This document shows, in pieces, positions 4,202 to 25,792 of a DNA stretch of 58,233 nt. A program made the translations under genes and the position numbers. Source of the stretch: Candidatus Fermentibacterota bacterium (lineage in GTDB: Bacteria; Fermentibacterota; Fermentibacteria; Fermentibacterales; JCC-6); the NCBI GenBank assembly GCA_014728175.1, contig WJMA01000006.1, positions 1 through 58,233 on the forward strand. Reading direction: 5' to 3'. The stretch's first letter is position 1. Every line of letters begins with the position of its first letter. The notes beneath the pieces are model-generated. The model had not been told where the DNA came from. It saw only the letters and a program-made list of their open reading frames with translations, and did not search any database.

Positions 4202-4312
4202 GGTTCGACTCTCGGGCCCGAAGACGGGGAACCCCAGCAGCCGGGACGGGATTATAGAACCAATGGTCTTGGCTGATGTACGCGCCTAACTGTCGAAAAG
4301 AGGGTTTTTGAG

Positions 4313-4331
4313 TTTTTTGAAAAACGTCCCG
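4313..4331 (-). repeat. REP-like GGGACG element, copy 1
   Basis: Read on the minus strand this is CGGGACG followed by an AT-rich tail. It matches the core of six other places in the window (8703, 46096, 47878, 50291, 50311, 57906). It lies just upstream of, and in frame with, the msrBA start, so a longer TTG-started frame from 4308 would translate it. Confidence 0.55.
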
Positions 4332-4343
4332 TTCTTGTTGGTT

Positions 4344-5180
4344 ATGCTGACGCCGTTGGAGGAATACGTGATGGTAGAAGGGGGAACCGAGGCACCGTTC
4401 TCCGGTGAGTATGTAGACCTTTTCGAGGATGGAACCTACCACTGCAAGCGGTGTGGGGCGGCCCTGTTCTCTTCGGACGCCAAGATCCACTCGAATACCG
4501 GCTGGCCGTCCTTCGATTACACCCTGAAGGACGCTGTCGAGCGCCGTCCCGACGAGGACGGATCCAGAACGGAGATAGTCTGTGCCAACTGCGGCGCCCA
4601 TCTGGGTCACGTGTTCGAGGGAGAGGGATTCACATCCGCGGACACCAGGCACTGCGTTAACTCCGTAGCGCTGGACTTCGAGCCGGAGGCGGATGACGAG
4701 AGAGCGATCTTCGCCGGAGGCTGCTTCTGGGGCGTCGAGTACCAGCTCGACCAGCTGGAAGGAGTGCTCCAAACCACAGCAGGTTATACGGGTGGGCATC
4801 TGGAGTCTCCCGGATACGAGGACGTGTGCTCGGGCGGTACGGGCCATGCCGAGGCGGTGGAGGTCGTCTTCGACCCCTCCGTGATAACCTTCGAGGAGCT
4901 GGCCAAGAGCTTCTTCGAGATACACGACCCCACCACTCCGAACAGGCAGGGAGCTGACGTAGGCTCGCAGTACCGATCGGCGGTCTTCTATACCAGTGAG
5001 GAGCAGAGGGTGGTGACGGAGGAGCTAATCGATCGGCTTGAAGGGTCGGGCTTCGACGTGGTCACCGAGGTTGCTCCCGCCGGCGAGTTCTGGCCTGCCG
5101 AGGACTACCACCAGGACTACTACGAGAAGAGCGGGGCCGGCTCACACTGTCATGTCAGGGTCGACAAGTTCGGAGACTAG
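4344..5180 (+). CDS. msrBA: Bifunctional peptide methionine sulfoxide reductase, MsrB-MsrA fusion
   Basis: 278 residues. The N-terminal half is MsrB: zinc Cys pairs C34/C37 and C80/C83, TGWPSF, and catalytic Cys104 in RHCVNS. The C-terminal half is MsrA: catalytic Cys127 in GCFWG, then the GTGHAE and DYHQDYY signatures and a late Cys (SHCHV) that may resolve the sulfenate. Together they reduce the R and S forms of methionine sulfoxide with thioredoxin-type electrons. The MsrB-first order is the less usual of the two fusion orders. I chose ATG 4344 because LTPLEEYVMVEGGTE is the normal MsrB start; a TTG at 4308 would add 12 residues encoded by a repeat. The FTR and glutaredoxin genes nearby could supply reducing power. 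Confidence 0.95.
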   Translation: MLTPLEEYVMVEGGTEAPFSGEYVDLFEDGTYHCKRCGAALFSSDAKIHSNTGWPSFDYTLKDAVERRPDEDGSRTEIVCANCGAHLGHVFEGEGFTSADTRHCVNSVALDFEPEADDERAIFAGGCFWGVEYQLDQLEGVLQTTAGYTGGHLESPGYEDVCSGGTGHAEAVEVVFDPSVITFEELAKSFFEIHDPTTPNRQGADVGSQYRSAVFYTSEEQRVVTEELIDRLEGSGFDVVTEVAPAGEFWPAEDYHQDYYEKSGAGSHCHVRVDKFGD

Positions 5181-5912: not shown

Positions 5913-6413
5913 TTACGCGAAGCGTTCGAACCTGTCCTTGGTTGCGCCGCAGATGGGGCACTTGCCCGGCGGCTCGTCCCTGGCGCAGAGGTAGCCGCAT
6001 ACCCGACAGCGATGAACCGGAAGGGGAAGCTCACCGGCTTCCAGCGGAGACCCGAGCGGCTCTCGGTACTGCGGTCTGTCCTCTTCGTCCGGTGGGCGCC
6101 GCTCCGGTACGGGCCGGATATCCTCTTCTCCCCGCTTGACCGACTCGGATACGTACAGACCGCAGTAGCAGGCTCGGTACTCCTGGAGATCGGCGTCCCG
6201 GTAGTCGCAGGGGCAGATTATATCCAGATCCCGTTTGCGGTTCCCTTCGGCCAGACGACATGGACAGGCCATGTATCCGTACCTGTCGATATTGGTCAGC
6301 AGGCCTTCCACCAGGTCCAGGGTGAACTCGGTGTCCGGATTGAGATGGTAACCGGCGTTCTCGGCCTGTCTGAAGAGCGTCTCGAACAGCTCCGTGGCTC
6401 TCTGGTCCCTCAT
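5913..6413 (-). CDS. Ferredoxin:thioredoxin reductase catalytic chain fused to a rubredoxin-like domain
   Basis: 166 residues in two domains. Residues 1-95 are the FTR catalytic chain, with its three Cys-x-Cys motifs CPC (50/52), CPC (67/69) and CYC (82/84) that hold the 4Fe-4S cluster and redox disulfide. Residues 132-166 are a rubredoxin-like knuckle pair, CRVC (136/139) and CPIC (152/155). FTR moves electrons from reduced ferredoxin to thioredoxin-type disulfides; the fused iron site may be an extra electron relay. The gene overlaps the upstream glutaredoxin gene by four bases (ATGA), so the products are translated together and are probably redox partners. Such fusions are known in anaerobes. 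Confidence 0.93.
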   Translation of the reverse strand: MRDQRATELFETLFRQAENAGYHLNPDTEFTLDLVEGLLTNIDRYGYMACPCRLAEGNRKRDLDIICPCDYRDADLQEYRACYCGLYVSESVKRGEEDIRPVPERRPPDEEDRPQYREPLGSPLEAGELPLPVHRCRVCGYLCARDEPPGKCPICGATKDRFERFA

Positions 6414-6706
6414 GGCTGCTGCTCAGTCCCCCCCAGACGCTGGCGTATCTTATCCACATCGTGTCCGGCTATCACCTCATTGCCATCTATCACCAGGGTG
6501 GGGAAGCTTCCCCGCGGATTGTGCACGCGCATCTGCCTTTTCGCCTCTTCCTTCTCCCGGTCGGAGAGCTTGTCTACGTCGACGTAGGAGTAGGCAACGC
6601 CCAGCTTGTCGAGCAGTTTTTTGGTCTTGCGGCACCATATGCAGGTGCTCAGGGCGTACATCTTTACGTCTCCTCGGTCCTCGCCCTCTACCTCGGCGAA
6701 ATCCAT
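6410..6706 (-). CDS. Glutaredoxin/NrdH-like thiol-disulfide protein
   Basis: 98 residues with a thioredoxin fold. The active site is CIWC (residues 22-25) after a beta strand (MYALST). The cis-Pro loop is SFPTLVID and the last helix follows GHDVDKIRQRL. The first 14 residues are an acidic extension. It starts at an ATG with GGAGGG upstream and overlaps the FTR gene by four bases. The inferred job is to carry reducing equivalents from FTR to target proteins, in place of a thioredoxin. Confidence 0.92.
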   Translation of the reverse strand: MDFAEVEGEDRGDVKMYALSTCIWCRKTKKLLDKLGVAYSYVDVDKLSDREKEEAKRQMRVHNPRGSFPTLVIDGNEVIAGHDVDKIRQRLGGTEQQP

Positions 6707-6813
6707 GATCCCTCCGATTCCCCGAAAAGAGTAGGGTTGCTGGGCGAAGTCGTAGTGGATAATCTAGGCCAAGAACGCTTCGCGCACACCCCCGCATCGA
6801 AGGGAAGTCGAGT

Positions 6814-7842
6814 ATGAAGGCCATGGTGCTGGACGGTGTTCGGGATCTCCGTGAGGAATCGGAGCCGCTGAGACTGGCCGATGTGGAAGTTCCCCATCCC
6901 GGAGAGGGCGAGGTCCTCTTGAAGGTTCATGCATGTGGCGTATGCCACACCGAGCTGGACGAGATAGAGGGAAGAACAGCTCCGCCGTCTTATCCGGTAA
7001 TACCGGGGCACGAGATCGTGGGAACGGTCGAGACCAGAGGAGAGGGCGTTTCCTCTCTGGAGGTAGGGGACAGGGTAGGAGTTGGATGGATCTTCTCCTC
7101 CTGCGGAAGCTGCGAGTACTGCAATAGTGGCAACCAGAACCTCTGTCTTGAGTTCAAAGCCACGGGCAGGGACGCCGATGGCGGCTACGCCGAGTACATG
7201 ACCGTACCCGAGATATCGGCACACAGGGTACCGGACGTATTTTCGGACGTGGAGGCGGCGCCCCTTATGTGCGCGGGAGCAATAGGCTACAGATCTCTGA
7301 GGTTGACCGGAATTCAAAACGGGCAGAATCTGGGACTGACCGGATTCGGAGGCAGCGGGCACCTGGTTCTGAAGATGGTCGGATACCGCTACCCGGATAC
7401 GGACGTGTACGTGTTCGCCCGCAACCCGTCGGAGCGGCAGTTCGCCCACGAGCTGGGCGCGGTTTGGGCTGGCGATACCGCGGACACCGCACCCGTCGGG
7501 CTGCATGCCATAATCGACACCACCCCGGCCTGGAAGCCTGTGGTGGAGGCGATGCGGAACCTCAGGCCGGGAGGCCGACTGGTGATAAACGCCATCCGCA
7601 AGGAGTCCCTGGACCAGGACTACCTGATGCGCCTGGACTACGCCGAGCATCTATGGATGGAGAGGGAGATCAAGAGCGTGGCCAACGTGGCCCACGGCGA
7701 CATATCGGGATTCCTGGAGCTGGCCGCCGAGATGGGCTCCAAGCCAGAGACCGGGGAGTACGCCCTGGAAGACGCCAACCGGGCCCTTCTGGAGCTTAAG
7801 GGCGGAAACGTAAGGGGGGCCAAGGTTCTCAGGATGTTCTGA
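6814..7842 (+). CDS. Zinc-dependent alcohol dehydrogenase (AdhP/AdhA-like, MDR family)
   Basis: 342 residues, standard for medium-chain dehydrogenases. The catalytic zinc site is visible as CGVCHTE and GHEIVG, and the structural zinc site as four Cys in CGSCEYCNSGNQNLC. The nucleotide-binding turn is GFGGSGHLV. The predicted reaction is NAD(P)-linked oxidation of an alcohol or reduction of an aldehyde in the cytosol. The start has GAAGGGAAG upstream. It is divergent from the glutaredoxin gene with 107 bases between. Substrate cannot be told from sequence. Confidence 0.95.
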   Translation: MKAMVLDGVRDLREESEPLRLADVEVPHPGEGEVLLKVHACGVCHTELDEIEGRTAPPSYPVIPGHEIVGTVETRGEGVSSLEVGDRVGVGWIFSSCGSCEYCNSGNQNLCLEFKATGRDADGGYAEYMTVPEISAHRVPDVFSDVEAAPLMCAGAIGYRSLRLTGIQNGQNLGLTGFGGSGHLVLKMVGYRYPDTDVYVFARNPSERQFAHELGAVWAGDTADTAPVGLHAIIDTTPAWKPVVEAMRNLRPGGRLVINAIRKESLDQDYLMRLDYAEHLWMEREIKSVANVAHGDISGFLELAAEMGSKPETGEYALEDANRALLELKGGNVRGAKVLRMF

Positions 7843-22301: not shown

Positions 22302-24182
22302 ATGTGTGGAGTACACGGAGCGGTTTGCCGAGCTCTTCCCGCAGAAGAGATCCGTCGGAGGCTGGAAACAATGTCCGAGCTCCAGAGGCACCGCGGTCCG
22401 GACGACCGGAGGGAGGAGGTGTTCGAGCTCTCGAGCTGCAGAGTCGGTCTGGGATTCGTAAGGCTGGCCATACTTGACCTGGAGACCGGCATGCAACCGA
22501 TCACCTGCCCGGTGGACGGATCGACCATAGCATGCAACGGCCAGGTTTACAACTACGTGGAGTTAAGGGACGAGGTGGCCGGTCAGCCCTTCCAAACCCA
22601 TGGCGACATGGAGGTCGCACTTCACCTCTATCGCAAGCTGGGTACCGGCTTCCTGAGCAAGCTCAACGGGATGTATGCCGGAGCGGTGCTGGACCGTCGC
22701 TCGGAGAGCCTGCTTCTGTTCAGGGACCGGTTCGGAATTAAGCCCCTGTACTACACCGAGTCGCCCGACGGCTTCTTCTTCTCCTCGGAGATCAGGCCCC
22801 TGCTTGCGGTTTCCCGAACCCCCGCTGAGCTGGATCGCCGGGCCCTTCCGCTCTACTTCACTTACAGGTTCGTTCCGGGGGAACGGACGGCGTTCAGAGG
22901 GATCCATCGCCTTCCTCCGGGAAGCTATCTCAGGATGGACTTGAGGTCGGGCGAGATACGCAGGGAGCGGTACTGGGAGTACGTTCCCTGTGGTGGGGAA
23001 GACCGCTCCGAGAGCGATCTCCGCCGGGAGTTCTGTAACCTCTTCCGGGACGCGGTCCGCATCAGGCTGCGCTCCGACGTGGAAGTGGGCAGCCTCCTCA
23101 GCGGGGGAGTGGACTCCTCGGCCGTATGCTCCGAGGTGGCCCGAGAGAAGCCGCTTCTGAAGCTCTTCACCATCGGCTTTGAAGAGAGGGAGTACGACGA
23201 GATGGCCGAAGTCGGGCGTTTCGTGTCCTCTCTACCCCGACTTCGGTCCGCCGAGATGATCAGCAGAACCTGCACCAGCAATCTCCTGGCCGGGCTACCC
23301 GGTCTGGTGGAGAGCGTGGAGGAACCCCTGTGCCTGGGAACCATGGTCCCTACGGATCAGGTATCCGATCTGGCCGCAGCTTCACTGAAGGTGGTTCTAT
23401 CCGGAGAGGGAGCGGACGAGATCCTCGCCGGTTACCGCAAGTTTCTGCTGGAGATGGCGGCGGTGGAGATGGAAGGGATGTCGGAGAAGGAGAGGAGCTC
23501 GCTCCTGGAAGACCTTCCCGAGCTTCCCGAATACGTCGGGATGAGGTCTCCGGATCCTTCCCGGAGGTACGTGCAGAGCGATTCGCTGTTCGATGCCGAA
23601 ACGCTACGCAGCCTTCTAGGTGAAGAGACCGGCGACCGGTCGATACCCCCCGAAGCCATGCCCTCGCTTCGGCCGGACTGCCATCCGGTGGACATGATGG
23701 TAGCCATGGAGTGTAGGGCCAGGCTGCCCGATTACGTGATACTCAGGTTGGACAAGCTCTCCATGAGGCACTCGCTGGAGGTTCGGACCCCATTCCTGGA
23801 CTACAGGATAGCCGAGTTGCTGGCGTCCACGCCTGCGAGGCTGAAGGTCGACCTGGCGGGCAGGATCGGCAAGTATATATCGCGCAAGGCAATGAGCGCA
23901 TGCGACGTACTGCCCGAAGAGGTCGCGTTCCGTCCGAAGATCCCCTTCACCATCCCCCTGGCCGACTGGCTGCAGGACCGCTCCTCCTTTCCCGAGCCGC
24001 TCCGGGAGGTGGTCGAGGGCACCGCGATAAGGAGGCACGGCGTACTCGATCCCGACACTGCCGCCGGCATTCTGGGCTCGGTCTCCTCCGAGGGCGTGGG
24101 GCCTTCGACCCTGGTATCTAACGCGGACCGGGCGTTCTCCCTATTGGTCTTCAGCCTGTGGTACGAGGAGTTCGTAGCATGA
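22302..24182 (+). CDS. asnB: Asparagine synthase (glutamine-hydrolysing) family protein
   Basis: 626 residues. Cys2 in MCGVHGA is the class II glutamine amidotransferase nucleophile, with RHRGPDD following. The N-terminal domain ends near residue 210. The synthetase domain has the ATP pyrophosphatase loop LLSGGVDSSAV (about 264-274) and later LSGEGADEILAGY. It would make an amide from a carboxylate by acyl-adenylate chemistry with ammonia from glutamine. It may be a true asparagine synthetase, but its four-base overlap with a GCS2-type ligase suggests a dedicated metabolite pathway; AsnB paralogues are often recruited for such roles. Confidence 0.92.
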   Translation: MCGVHGAVCRALPAEEIRRRLETMSELQRHRGPDDRREEVFELSSCRVGLGFVRLAILDLETGMQPITCPVDGSTIACNGQVYNYVELRDEVAGQPFQTHGDMEVALHLYRKLGTGFLSKLNGMYAGAVLDRRSESLLLFRDRFGIKPLYYTESPDGFFFSSEIRPLLAVSRTPAELDRRALPLYFTYRFVPGERTAFRGIHRLPPGSYLRMDLRSGEIRRERYWEYVPCGGEDRSESDLRREFCNLFRDAVRIRLRSDVEVGSLLSGGVDSSAVCSEVAREKPLLKLFTIGFEEREYDEMAEVGRFVSSLPRLRSAEMISRTCTSNLLAGLPGLVESVEEPLCLGTMVPTDQVSDLAAASLKVVLSGEGADEILAGYRKFLLEMAAVEMEGMSEKERSSLLEDLPELPEYVGMRSPDPSRRYVQSDSLFDAETLRSLLGEETGDRSIPPEAMPSLRPDCHPVDMMVAMECRARLPDYVILRLDKLSMRHSLEVRTPFLDYRIAELLASTPARLKVDLAGRIGKYISRKAMSACDVLPEEVAFRPKIPFTIPLADWLQDRSSFPEPLREVVEGTAIRRHGVLDPDTAAGILGSVSSEGVGPSTLVSNADRAFSLLVFSLWYEEFVA

Positions 24183-25132
24183 GCCGGGAATGCGGGGTCG
24201 GTATCCTGGGAGAAGCCACGGAGGTCGATCGGCTTGCCCGCAGGTACGCCGGTCGATTGCTGCAGGAAATCTCGAAAATCGATAGGGAGCCTCCCAGAAC
24301 CTTTGGTTTCGAGTACGAGTTCCTTCCGGCCGAGCCCTTGACCGCCAGGGACATGACCAGACTGCGGCGTCTGCTGAGGGACGAGGGTTTCACCGAGTCC
24401 GAAGGGCGATTCGTCTGCGATGAGCGGGCAGTCGTTTTCGAGCCCGGAGGACAGATCGAGTATCTGAGCCCCCCCATGGAGGGACACGACGAAAGCACTT
24501 TGCTGGAGACGATGGGGTGGATCTCGGGGATGAACGCCATCATCCGGAGCAGGCTGGGGATCCGCTACCTGGGAAGGCCCTTCCTGGCGGGAAGGGAGAC
24601 GTCGCCGCTTCTTCTGACGGCCGACAGGTACCGGAGCATGCACCGGAGGTTCGCCGTATGCGACGACAGGGGATTGCAGATGATGAAGGGCACGGCCGCG
24701 GTGCACCTCCATGCAGCGCTGATGCGGCCCGGGGAGCTGGCGCCGCTATGGCTTGCAATGACGGATCTCTCCTGCCGTACTCACTTCTCGATGTCCGAGC
24801 AGCGGAGAGACATCTGGAATAGAACCGACCCCCGCAGATGCGGCCTGCCCGCGATTCCCCGGGATGCGCTGGACCCGATGGACATCCTGGTACCCCTTTG
24901 CAGGCTCGCGGTGTCGGCCGTGGAGCTGTCGTCCGGGGTGCCCTTCTACGCTCTAGACGGGGTAGGCTTCCCTGATTTCCTGGAGCATCTGACCACCATA
25001 TTCACGGACGTAAGGCTGAACCTCAAGGGAATGACCGTGGAGCTCAGAACTCCGGACAGCCTTCCGCCCCACAGGTTCCCCACTCTGTGGCGAAGCTTCA
25101 TCGAGCAGATCGAGGAACGCCTCCCCCGTTGA
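24179..25132 (+). CDS. GCS2-family glutamate-cysteine ligase-like carboxylate-amine ligase
   Basis: 317 residues from ATG 24179, which overlaps the AsnB stop (ATGA) and has GAGGAG upstream. Metal and substrate motifs of the GCS2 fold are visible: FGFEYEF, EPGGQIEYLSPP, RYRSMHRRF, QMMKGTAAVHLH, and the late strand DVRLNLKG with VELRTPDSLPP. At 317 residues it is shorter than bacterial GshA or plant-type enzymes (about 430-520) and nearer to compact YbdK/EgtA-like amidoligases. It should join an amino acid side-chain carboxylate to an amine using ATP. The true substrates are unknown. Confidence 0.82.
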   Translation: MSRECGVGILGEATEVDRLARRYAGRLLQEISKIDREPPRTFGFEYEFLPAEPLTARDMTRLRRLLRDEGFTESEGRFVCDERAVVFEPGGQIEYLSPPMEGHDESTLLETMGWISGMNAIIRSRLGIRYLGRPFLAGRETSPLLLTADRYRSMHRRFAVCDDRGLQMMKGTAAVHLHAALMRPGELAPLWLAMTDLSCRTHFSMSEQRRDIWNRTDPRRCGLPAIPRDALDPMDILVPLCRLAVSAVELSSGVPFYALDGVGFPDFLEHLTTIFTDVRLNLKGMTVELRTPDSLPPHRFPTLWRSFIEQIEERLPR

Positions 25133-25234: not shown

Positions 25235-25792
25235 ATGGCGCGGATAAGGGTGATCGAACCGGAGGACGCCCGGGGCAGGCTGCGGGAGATATACGAAGAG
25301 TTGGCAGGGAAGAGAGGTAAAATAGCCGCTATCCACAAGATCCAGAGCCTCAATCCCGAGTCCATCCGGAGCCACATGGACCTATACATGACCATAATGT
25401 ACGGAAAGTCCTCCCTGTCCCGCGCCCAGAGAGAACTGATCGGCGTGGTGGTCTCCCGGGCCAACGGCTGCGAATACTGCGTAAGGCATCACCTGGAGGC
25501 CCTGCGGCACTTCTGGAGGGATCCCTTGCTGCTCAAGTGCATAGAAGAGGACTTCGAGCAGGCCGGGCTGGACGACCGCAACGCTGCGCTCTGCGATTAC
25601 GCGTGGAAGCTGTCCCGCCGGCCGGCCGGAATAGATGACGACGACTTCCGGGCCATGCGAGAGACCGGCTTGGATGACCAGGCCATCCTGGACGCTACGC
25701 TTACCGTTGCCTACTTCAATTTCGTAAACAGGATAGTCACCGGCCTGGACGTGGAGCTGGAACCCGACCCCGGCGGTTACAAGTACGAATGA
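25235..25792 (+). CDS. AhpD-like peroxidase-related protein (carboxymuconolactone decarboxylase fold)
   Basis: 185 residues. The redox motif CEYCVRHH (Cys-x-x-Cys-x-x-x-His) with the Glu upstream (SRAQRELIGVVVSRANG) defines the AhpD-type active site. Such proteins reduce peroxides or pass electrons to peroxiredoxins, usually as oligomers. The ribosome site is GGAAGGGA. It follows the GCS2 gene after 102 bases and a hairpin, on the same strand, so it may belong to the same pathway or only to oxygen defence. It is convergent with the MutL-like gene. Confidence 0.9.
   Translation: MARIRVIEPEDARGRLREIYEELAGKRGKIAAIHKIQSLNPESIRSHMDLYMTIMYGKSSLSRAQRELIGVVVSRANGCEYCVRHHLEALRHFWRDPLLLKCIEEDFEQAGLDDRNAALCDYAWKLSRRPAGIDDDDFRAMRETGLDDQAILDATLTVAYFNFVNRIVTGLDVELEPDPGGYKYE

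Follow-up and report, generated by a model that had tools for sequence, protein, structure and literature searches.

An AsnB-GCS2 gene pair of Fermentibacterota and Desulfobacterota as a candidate route to an end-capped, glutathione-like thiol

The window (the whole stretch of 58,233 nucleotides analysed here) belongs to a Candidatus Fermentibacterota genome and carries, side by side, the genes for an AsnB-type amidotransferase and a compact GCS2 ligase, which raises the question of what the two enzymes make together. The open reading frames and the ATGA shared by stop and start codon bore out the original prediction of an AsnB-like protein and a compact, 317-residue GCS2 protein encoded with a four-base overlap (Table 1). 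For GCS2, an upstream GTG at 24158 offers an alternative to the ATG at 24179 and would extend the protein from 317 to 324 aa. The AsnB protein was matched by the domain profiles Asn_synthase (207 bits) and GATase_7 (121 bits).

Table 1. Position and annotation of the gene pair and other features of the window
Feature	Position	Strand	Remarks
Zn-dependent alcohol dehydrogenase	6814..7842	+	apparent homologue of the gene 5' of AsnB in nine Fermentibacterota loci
AsnB-type glutamine-dependent amidotransferase, discrete clade	22302..24182	+	626 aa; proposed amidation of the ligase product
ATGA stop/start overlap of AsnB and GCS2	24179..24182	+	translational coupling; -4 or similar in many relatives
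Compact GCS2 ligase, plant-type glutamate-cysteine ligase fold	24179..25132	+	317 aa; proposed gamma-glutamyl ligase
AhpD/CMD peroxidase-related protein	25235..25792	+	TIGR01926; neighbour of the pair in the window only, outside the conserved unit

Conservation and neighbourhood of the pair

The neighbourhood survey proposed with the original prediction demonstrated that the adjacency of the two genes is conserved in relatives. In a scan of named genomes, from which the window's own record was possibly left out, AsnB was located directly 5' of GCS2 in all 44 loci with upstream sequence, which came from Fermentibacterota and Desulfobacterota, two phyla rich in uncultured members. Loci whose GCS2 is 36-49% identical to that of the window came from MAGs labelled Candidatus Fermentibacteria, Aegiribacteria, Sabulitectum and Hyd24-12 and, within the same range, from Desulfobacterales, other Deltaproteobacteria, Tharpella and Thermodesulfobacteriota. 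In a sample of the window's phylum, GCS2 was present in 23 of 60 relatives, with AsnB directly 5' wherever upstream sequence sufficed; several of these relatives are the same contigs as named Fermentibacterota records of the scan. The genes either overlapped by between a few and ~30 bases or were separated by up to ~80 bases (start codons approximate), and the pairwise distances of AsnB and GCS2 were correlated with r = 0.96 (38 loci). The pairing across two phyla is far beyond chance. No match was obtained in a plasmid collection. On one contig (L089 and L048), AsnB starts with MGGVCG and has Gly in place of the nucleophile Cys2, with the GCS2 partner still present, and in Sabulitectum silens JCC-6 (L063/L038) AsnB is spread over several reading frames, reflecting frameshifts in the genome or the assembly.

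Among Desulfobacterota-type loci with downstream sequence, 20 of 26 carried a gene for glutaredoxin-3 (~85 aa) 3' of GCS2, which was directly adjacent in all of them except two with one intervening gene. For the reverse test, matches to TIGR02181 above the cut-off were sought in 192 genomes of one class, drawn regardless of the pair. Glutaredoxin-3 was detected in 22 of them and lay beside a GCS2-clade gene in 21, and the GCS2 profile, applied to the same genomes, returned the identical set of 22 (naive hypergeometric value ~2e-29, which is no true probability, since the genomes are related). Some sampled genomes, among them G107 and G158, have contigs of megabase size and may derive from isolates. 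No linked glutaredoxin-3 was found in Fermentibacterota, and the window genome contained none above the cut-off. The minus strand of the window at 6300-6800 encodes a Glutaredoxin/NrdH-like protein (TIGR02181, 30 bits, below the cut-off), adjoining a sequence that by eye resembles the ferredoxin-thioredoxin reductase catalytic subunit, and the translation of 4308-5180, likewise judged by eye, is an apparent MsrB-MsrA methionine sulfoxide reductase fusion. Pair-less genomes of the class used in the reverse test contain glutaredoxin-3-like domains in frames of ~400 aa (L184-L188), possibly as fusions to another domain.

Other neighbours were more local. The AhpD-like gene noted in the original prediction is genuine (TIGR01926, 150 bits, above the cut-off), but it lies outside the unit, and of the Fermentibacterota loci inspected, the window alone has it 3' of GCS2; AhpD/CMD, nitroreductase, DUF498 and MIF genes were all ruled out as members of the unit, as they do not lie beside the pair in relatives. 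One Fermentibacterota genus, together with a near relative, has a Zn-dependent alcohol dehydrogenase gene 5' of the pair, the apparent homologue in the window lying 14 kb from the pair, and a glutaminyl-tRNA synthetase gene is found 3' of the pair in several loci of another Fermentibacterota genus. A GloB-like (glyoxalase-II-like) MBL hydrolase, with a score of 137 bits against a cut-off of 201, is encoded directly 5' of the pair at three loci, with a fourth locus having it at a distance of a few genes. Tharpella-type loci (L071, L090, L093, L095) carry genes for a ThiS/MoaD-like protein and a ThiF-like adenylyltransferase 5' of the pair. A strong GshB match (PF02955) was confined to one of 26 pair genomes, and nine Fermentibacterota had none; the weaker matches in other pair genomes are probably other ATP-grasp proteins.

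Active sites of the two enzymes and the linked glutaredoxin

The window GCS2 was barely at the cut-off of PF04107 (21.3 versus 21 bits) and far below those of TIGR01436 (31 versus 463 bits) and NCBIfam EgtA (TIGR03444; 37 versus 371 bits); for any member of its clade, the best E-value against the curated GCL/EgtA models was 5e-16, with scores seen far under the cut-offs. Its predicted structure (pLDDT 95.1) was most similar to plant GCL (2gwc; TM 0.73, E 1e-14), followed by YbdK, and profile, model and aligned motifs agree in the fold and the ATP/Mg motifs of the GCS2 family. It has in common with plant/alphaproteobacterial GCL and EgtA the motifs EPGGQ(x)E, RY, RGxxMM, TDP.R.G, DHLTTIFTDVR and LExR..D, but comprises 317 instead of ~455 aa. 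Moreover, in a profile alignment with alphaproteobacterial-type GCL, MMKGTAAVHLH takes the place of MMxRTCTVQVN, so that three residues beside the MM motif are changed relative to canonical GCL and EgtA (R to G, Q to H and N to H). The canonical residues presumably have a role in substrate binding, and glutamate and cysteine are therefore not assured substrates.

The AsnB proteins of the pair formed a monophyletic clade among the AsnB-like proteins compared (support 1.0, stem 0.88), in a tree in which E. coli AsnB was the sole proven synthetase, and were ~28-32% identical to other AsnBs. Of 50 such proteins, 49 kept the glutaminase nucleophile Cys2 and 49-50 the glutamine-binding residues Arg49, Asn74, Gly75 and Asp98, whereas Glu76 was replaced by Gln in 48 and the position of E. 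coli Asp384 was Val in all 50. The synthetase residues Glu364, Asp367, Glu368, Arg403 and Lys466 (human ASNS numbering) were conserved throughout (50/50). The check on the aspartate-binding residues of the pocket, suggested with the original prediction, found them kept (SGEGADE, Arg482 and Lys546, corresponding to Asp/AMP-contacting residues of human ASNS) but not diagnostic: the synthetase residues are no guide to the substrate, because they are common to most AsnB-like proteins compared, including those of glycan clusters. The closest solved fold to the AsnB model was the hydroxyamidotransferase TsnB9, followed by AsnB, with beta-lactam synthetase and carbapenam synthetase also among the nearest, and the rank of TsnB9 makes a carboxylate other than that of aspartate a plausible substrate. 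With the AsnB asparagine synthetases and TsnB9, the enzyme shares an Ntn glutaminase, a PP-loop acyl-adenylate synthetase and the use of ammonia from glutamine; it differs from them in its separate clade, the changes at Glu76 and Asp384 and the constant company of GCS2. The other AsnB-like gene of genome G000, on contig C48 (L001), lies beside glycosyltransferase-like and amine-oxidoreductase-like genes and may encode a glycan amidotransferase.

The linked glutaredoxins (35 non-redundant sequences) keep CP[YF]C (CGYC in one case), T[VI]P and GGxD. At the site matching Arg40 of E. coli Grx3, all 35 have V, I, M, A, L or S and none has Arg, which in turn occupies this position in all ten glutathione-type glutaredoxins compared (E. 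coli, Synechocystis, 2klx, 2khp and six from genomes with an ordinary plant-type GCL). In published structures (PMC11724882), the Gly carboxylate of glutathione can be contacted by a helix-2 residue, which is Gln in class I and Arg/Lys in class II; by the numbering match made in this analysis, this residue would be equivalent to Arg40. The other Gly-contacting residue, Lys8, was rejected as a discriminator, because it varies in glutathione genomes too and only Arg40 separates the groups. The unlinked glutaredoxin of one pair genome (G158) has Val at the Arg40 position, and the loss of Arg40 in the linked proteins may have been a single ancestral event. Set aside from this comparison were the second, unlinked glutaredoxins of two genomes (L151 in G061 and L152 in G062), which have a CPYS site, Thr at position 40 and, on the gamma-Glu side, His where Asp would be expected.

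Proposed thiol pathway and alternatives

The original prediction had envisaged a small metabolite of gamma-glutamyl or modified-amino-acid type, or else an unusual thiol. The independent gene context, comprising the glutaredoxin-3 linkage, its perfect co-occurrence in one class, the glyoxalase-II-like neighbour and the absence of GshB from most pair genomes, supports a glutathione-like thiol. Judged from sequence, the chances are slightly in favour of the pair being a two-enzyme route to a low-molecular-weight thiol resembling glutathione, in place of the GshA/GshB route. Somewhat short of an even chance is given to the more specific reading that GCS2 and AsnB together produce gamma-Glu-Cys amide, an undescribed thiol, in Desulfobacterota and Fermentibacterota, by a pathway that replaces GshB and has a glutaredoxin of its own, adapted to the missing carboxylate. 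In this pathway, the compact GCS2 would use ATP to link cysteine, or a close analogue, to the gamma-carboxyl group of glutamate. AsnB would then adenylate the free Cys carboxylate of the product and amidate it with ammonia released from glutamine by the intact Ntn glutaminase, yielding gamma-Glu-Cys-NH2 or a similar end-capped thiol, which, to judge from Desulfobacterota, would be used by the dedicated glutaredoxin-3. The amide cap is suggested by the absence of the Gly-facing Arg from the glutaredoxin site in combination with the intact glutaminase. The identity of the thiol, as well as its role in Fermentibacterota, where no linked glutaredoxin is found, we infer.

The N-acetylglutaminylglutamine amide (NAGGN) pathway (AsnO and Ngg) follows the same logic, in that a ligase forms the peptide bond and an AsnB-like enzyme caps the carboxylate; its ligase, however, is of a different family, and its context is osmotic, whereas that of the pair is redox. 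A C-terminally amidated gamma-glutamyl thiol is known as the glutathione amide of purple sulfur bacteria (Marichromatium gracile). There, as in the linked glutaredoxins, a partner enzyme is altered where the carboxylate would be met, glutathione reductase having Glu in place of Arg21 (PMC8877833), and a Prx/Grx thiol peroxidase is, according to the title of Vergauwen et al. 2001 as listed in PMC4213376, fuelled by glutathione amide. Glutathione amide is built on glutathione and thus needs both GshA and GshB, while the pair genomes mostly lack GshB. The papers searched yielded no gene for its amidation step, and none of the open ones was relevant to a gene for a glutathione amide synthase or to a bacterial gamma-glutamylcysteine amide. 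In line with the original prediction, to which no named pathway with exactly this pair was known, neither the pair nor the pathway was described in the open papers searched.

It is unlikely that GCS2 produces plain gamma-Glu-Cys as the working thiol and AsnB is an ordinary asparagine synthetase, coupled to it by happenstance. AsnB does pass the asparagine synthetase model TIGR01536 (376 bits, cut-off 267) and retains the Asp/AMP contacts of human ASNS, and most Fermentibacterota possess AsnRS in the absence of AsnA; yet most AsnB-like proteins compared have the retained residues too, and the clade is monophyletic, with a long stem and low identity to other AsnBs. The window's own genome, furthermore, has AsnA together with AsnRS, which rules out the pair AsnB as its sole source of Asn. 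Nor did the presence of the pair track that of AsnRS in the genome sample: among genomes some of which are incomplete, five pair-less ones (G001, G008, G019, G037 and G039) possess AsnRS although no AsnB scores above the cut-off in them, and five others (G060, G071, G075, G076 and G118) have the pair without AsnRS above the cut-off. The original prediction had set against itself an AsnB clade that is the only asparagine synthetase of the genome and has no conserved GCS2 neighbour; AsnA is present and the neighbour is conserved.

An amidated gamma-glutamyl or dipeptide osmolyte similar to N-acetylglutaminylglutamine amide, with no thiol involved, could account for the score of AsnB against the NAGGN amidotransferase model (286 bits, albeit under the cut-off of 570), the glutaminyl-tRNA synthetase gene beside the pair in several Fermentibacterota and the altered pocket of GCS2, but we rate it as quite improbable, given that the link to glutaredoxin-3, with its perfect co-occurrence in 192 genomes, and the glyoxalase-II-like gene point to a thiol. 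There is also a small chance that the product is a gamma-glutamyl thiol on which AsnB acts differently, coupling the Cys carboxylate with another amine, or amidating the alpha-carboxylate of Glu or free Cys beforehand. The diverse acyl acceptors of AsnB-fold enzymes, with beta-lactam synthetase, carbapenam synthetase and TsnB9 near in structure, and the departure of the GCS2 pocket from canonical GCL would fit such a reaction, while the intact glutaminase (Cys2 in 49 of 50) favours ammonia, and the conservation of TVP and GGxD on the gamma-Glu side of the glutaredoxin site speaks for a gamma-Glu end that carries no modification.

Many strict anaerobes have a main thiol that is, to our knowledge, still to be identified. 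If the proposed gamma-Glu-Cys amide pathway is true, the two genes would serve as a marker that flags sulfate reducers and candidate-phylum bacteria with a glutathione analogue, and would provide an experimental handle on the redox and metal (including mercury) chemistry of the bacteria that carry them. The AsnB-type enzyme would, in addition, represent a candidate type of enzyme for the amidation that yields glutathione amide, a step with apparently no assigned enzyme.
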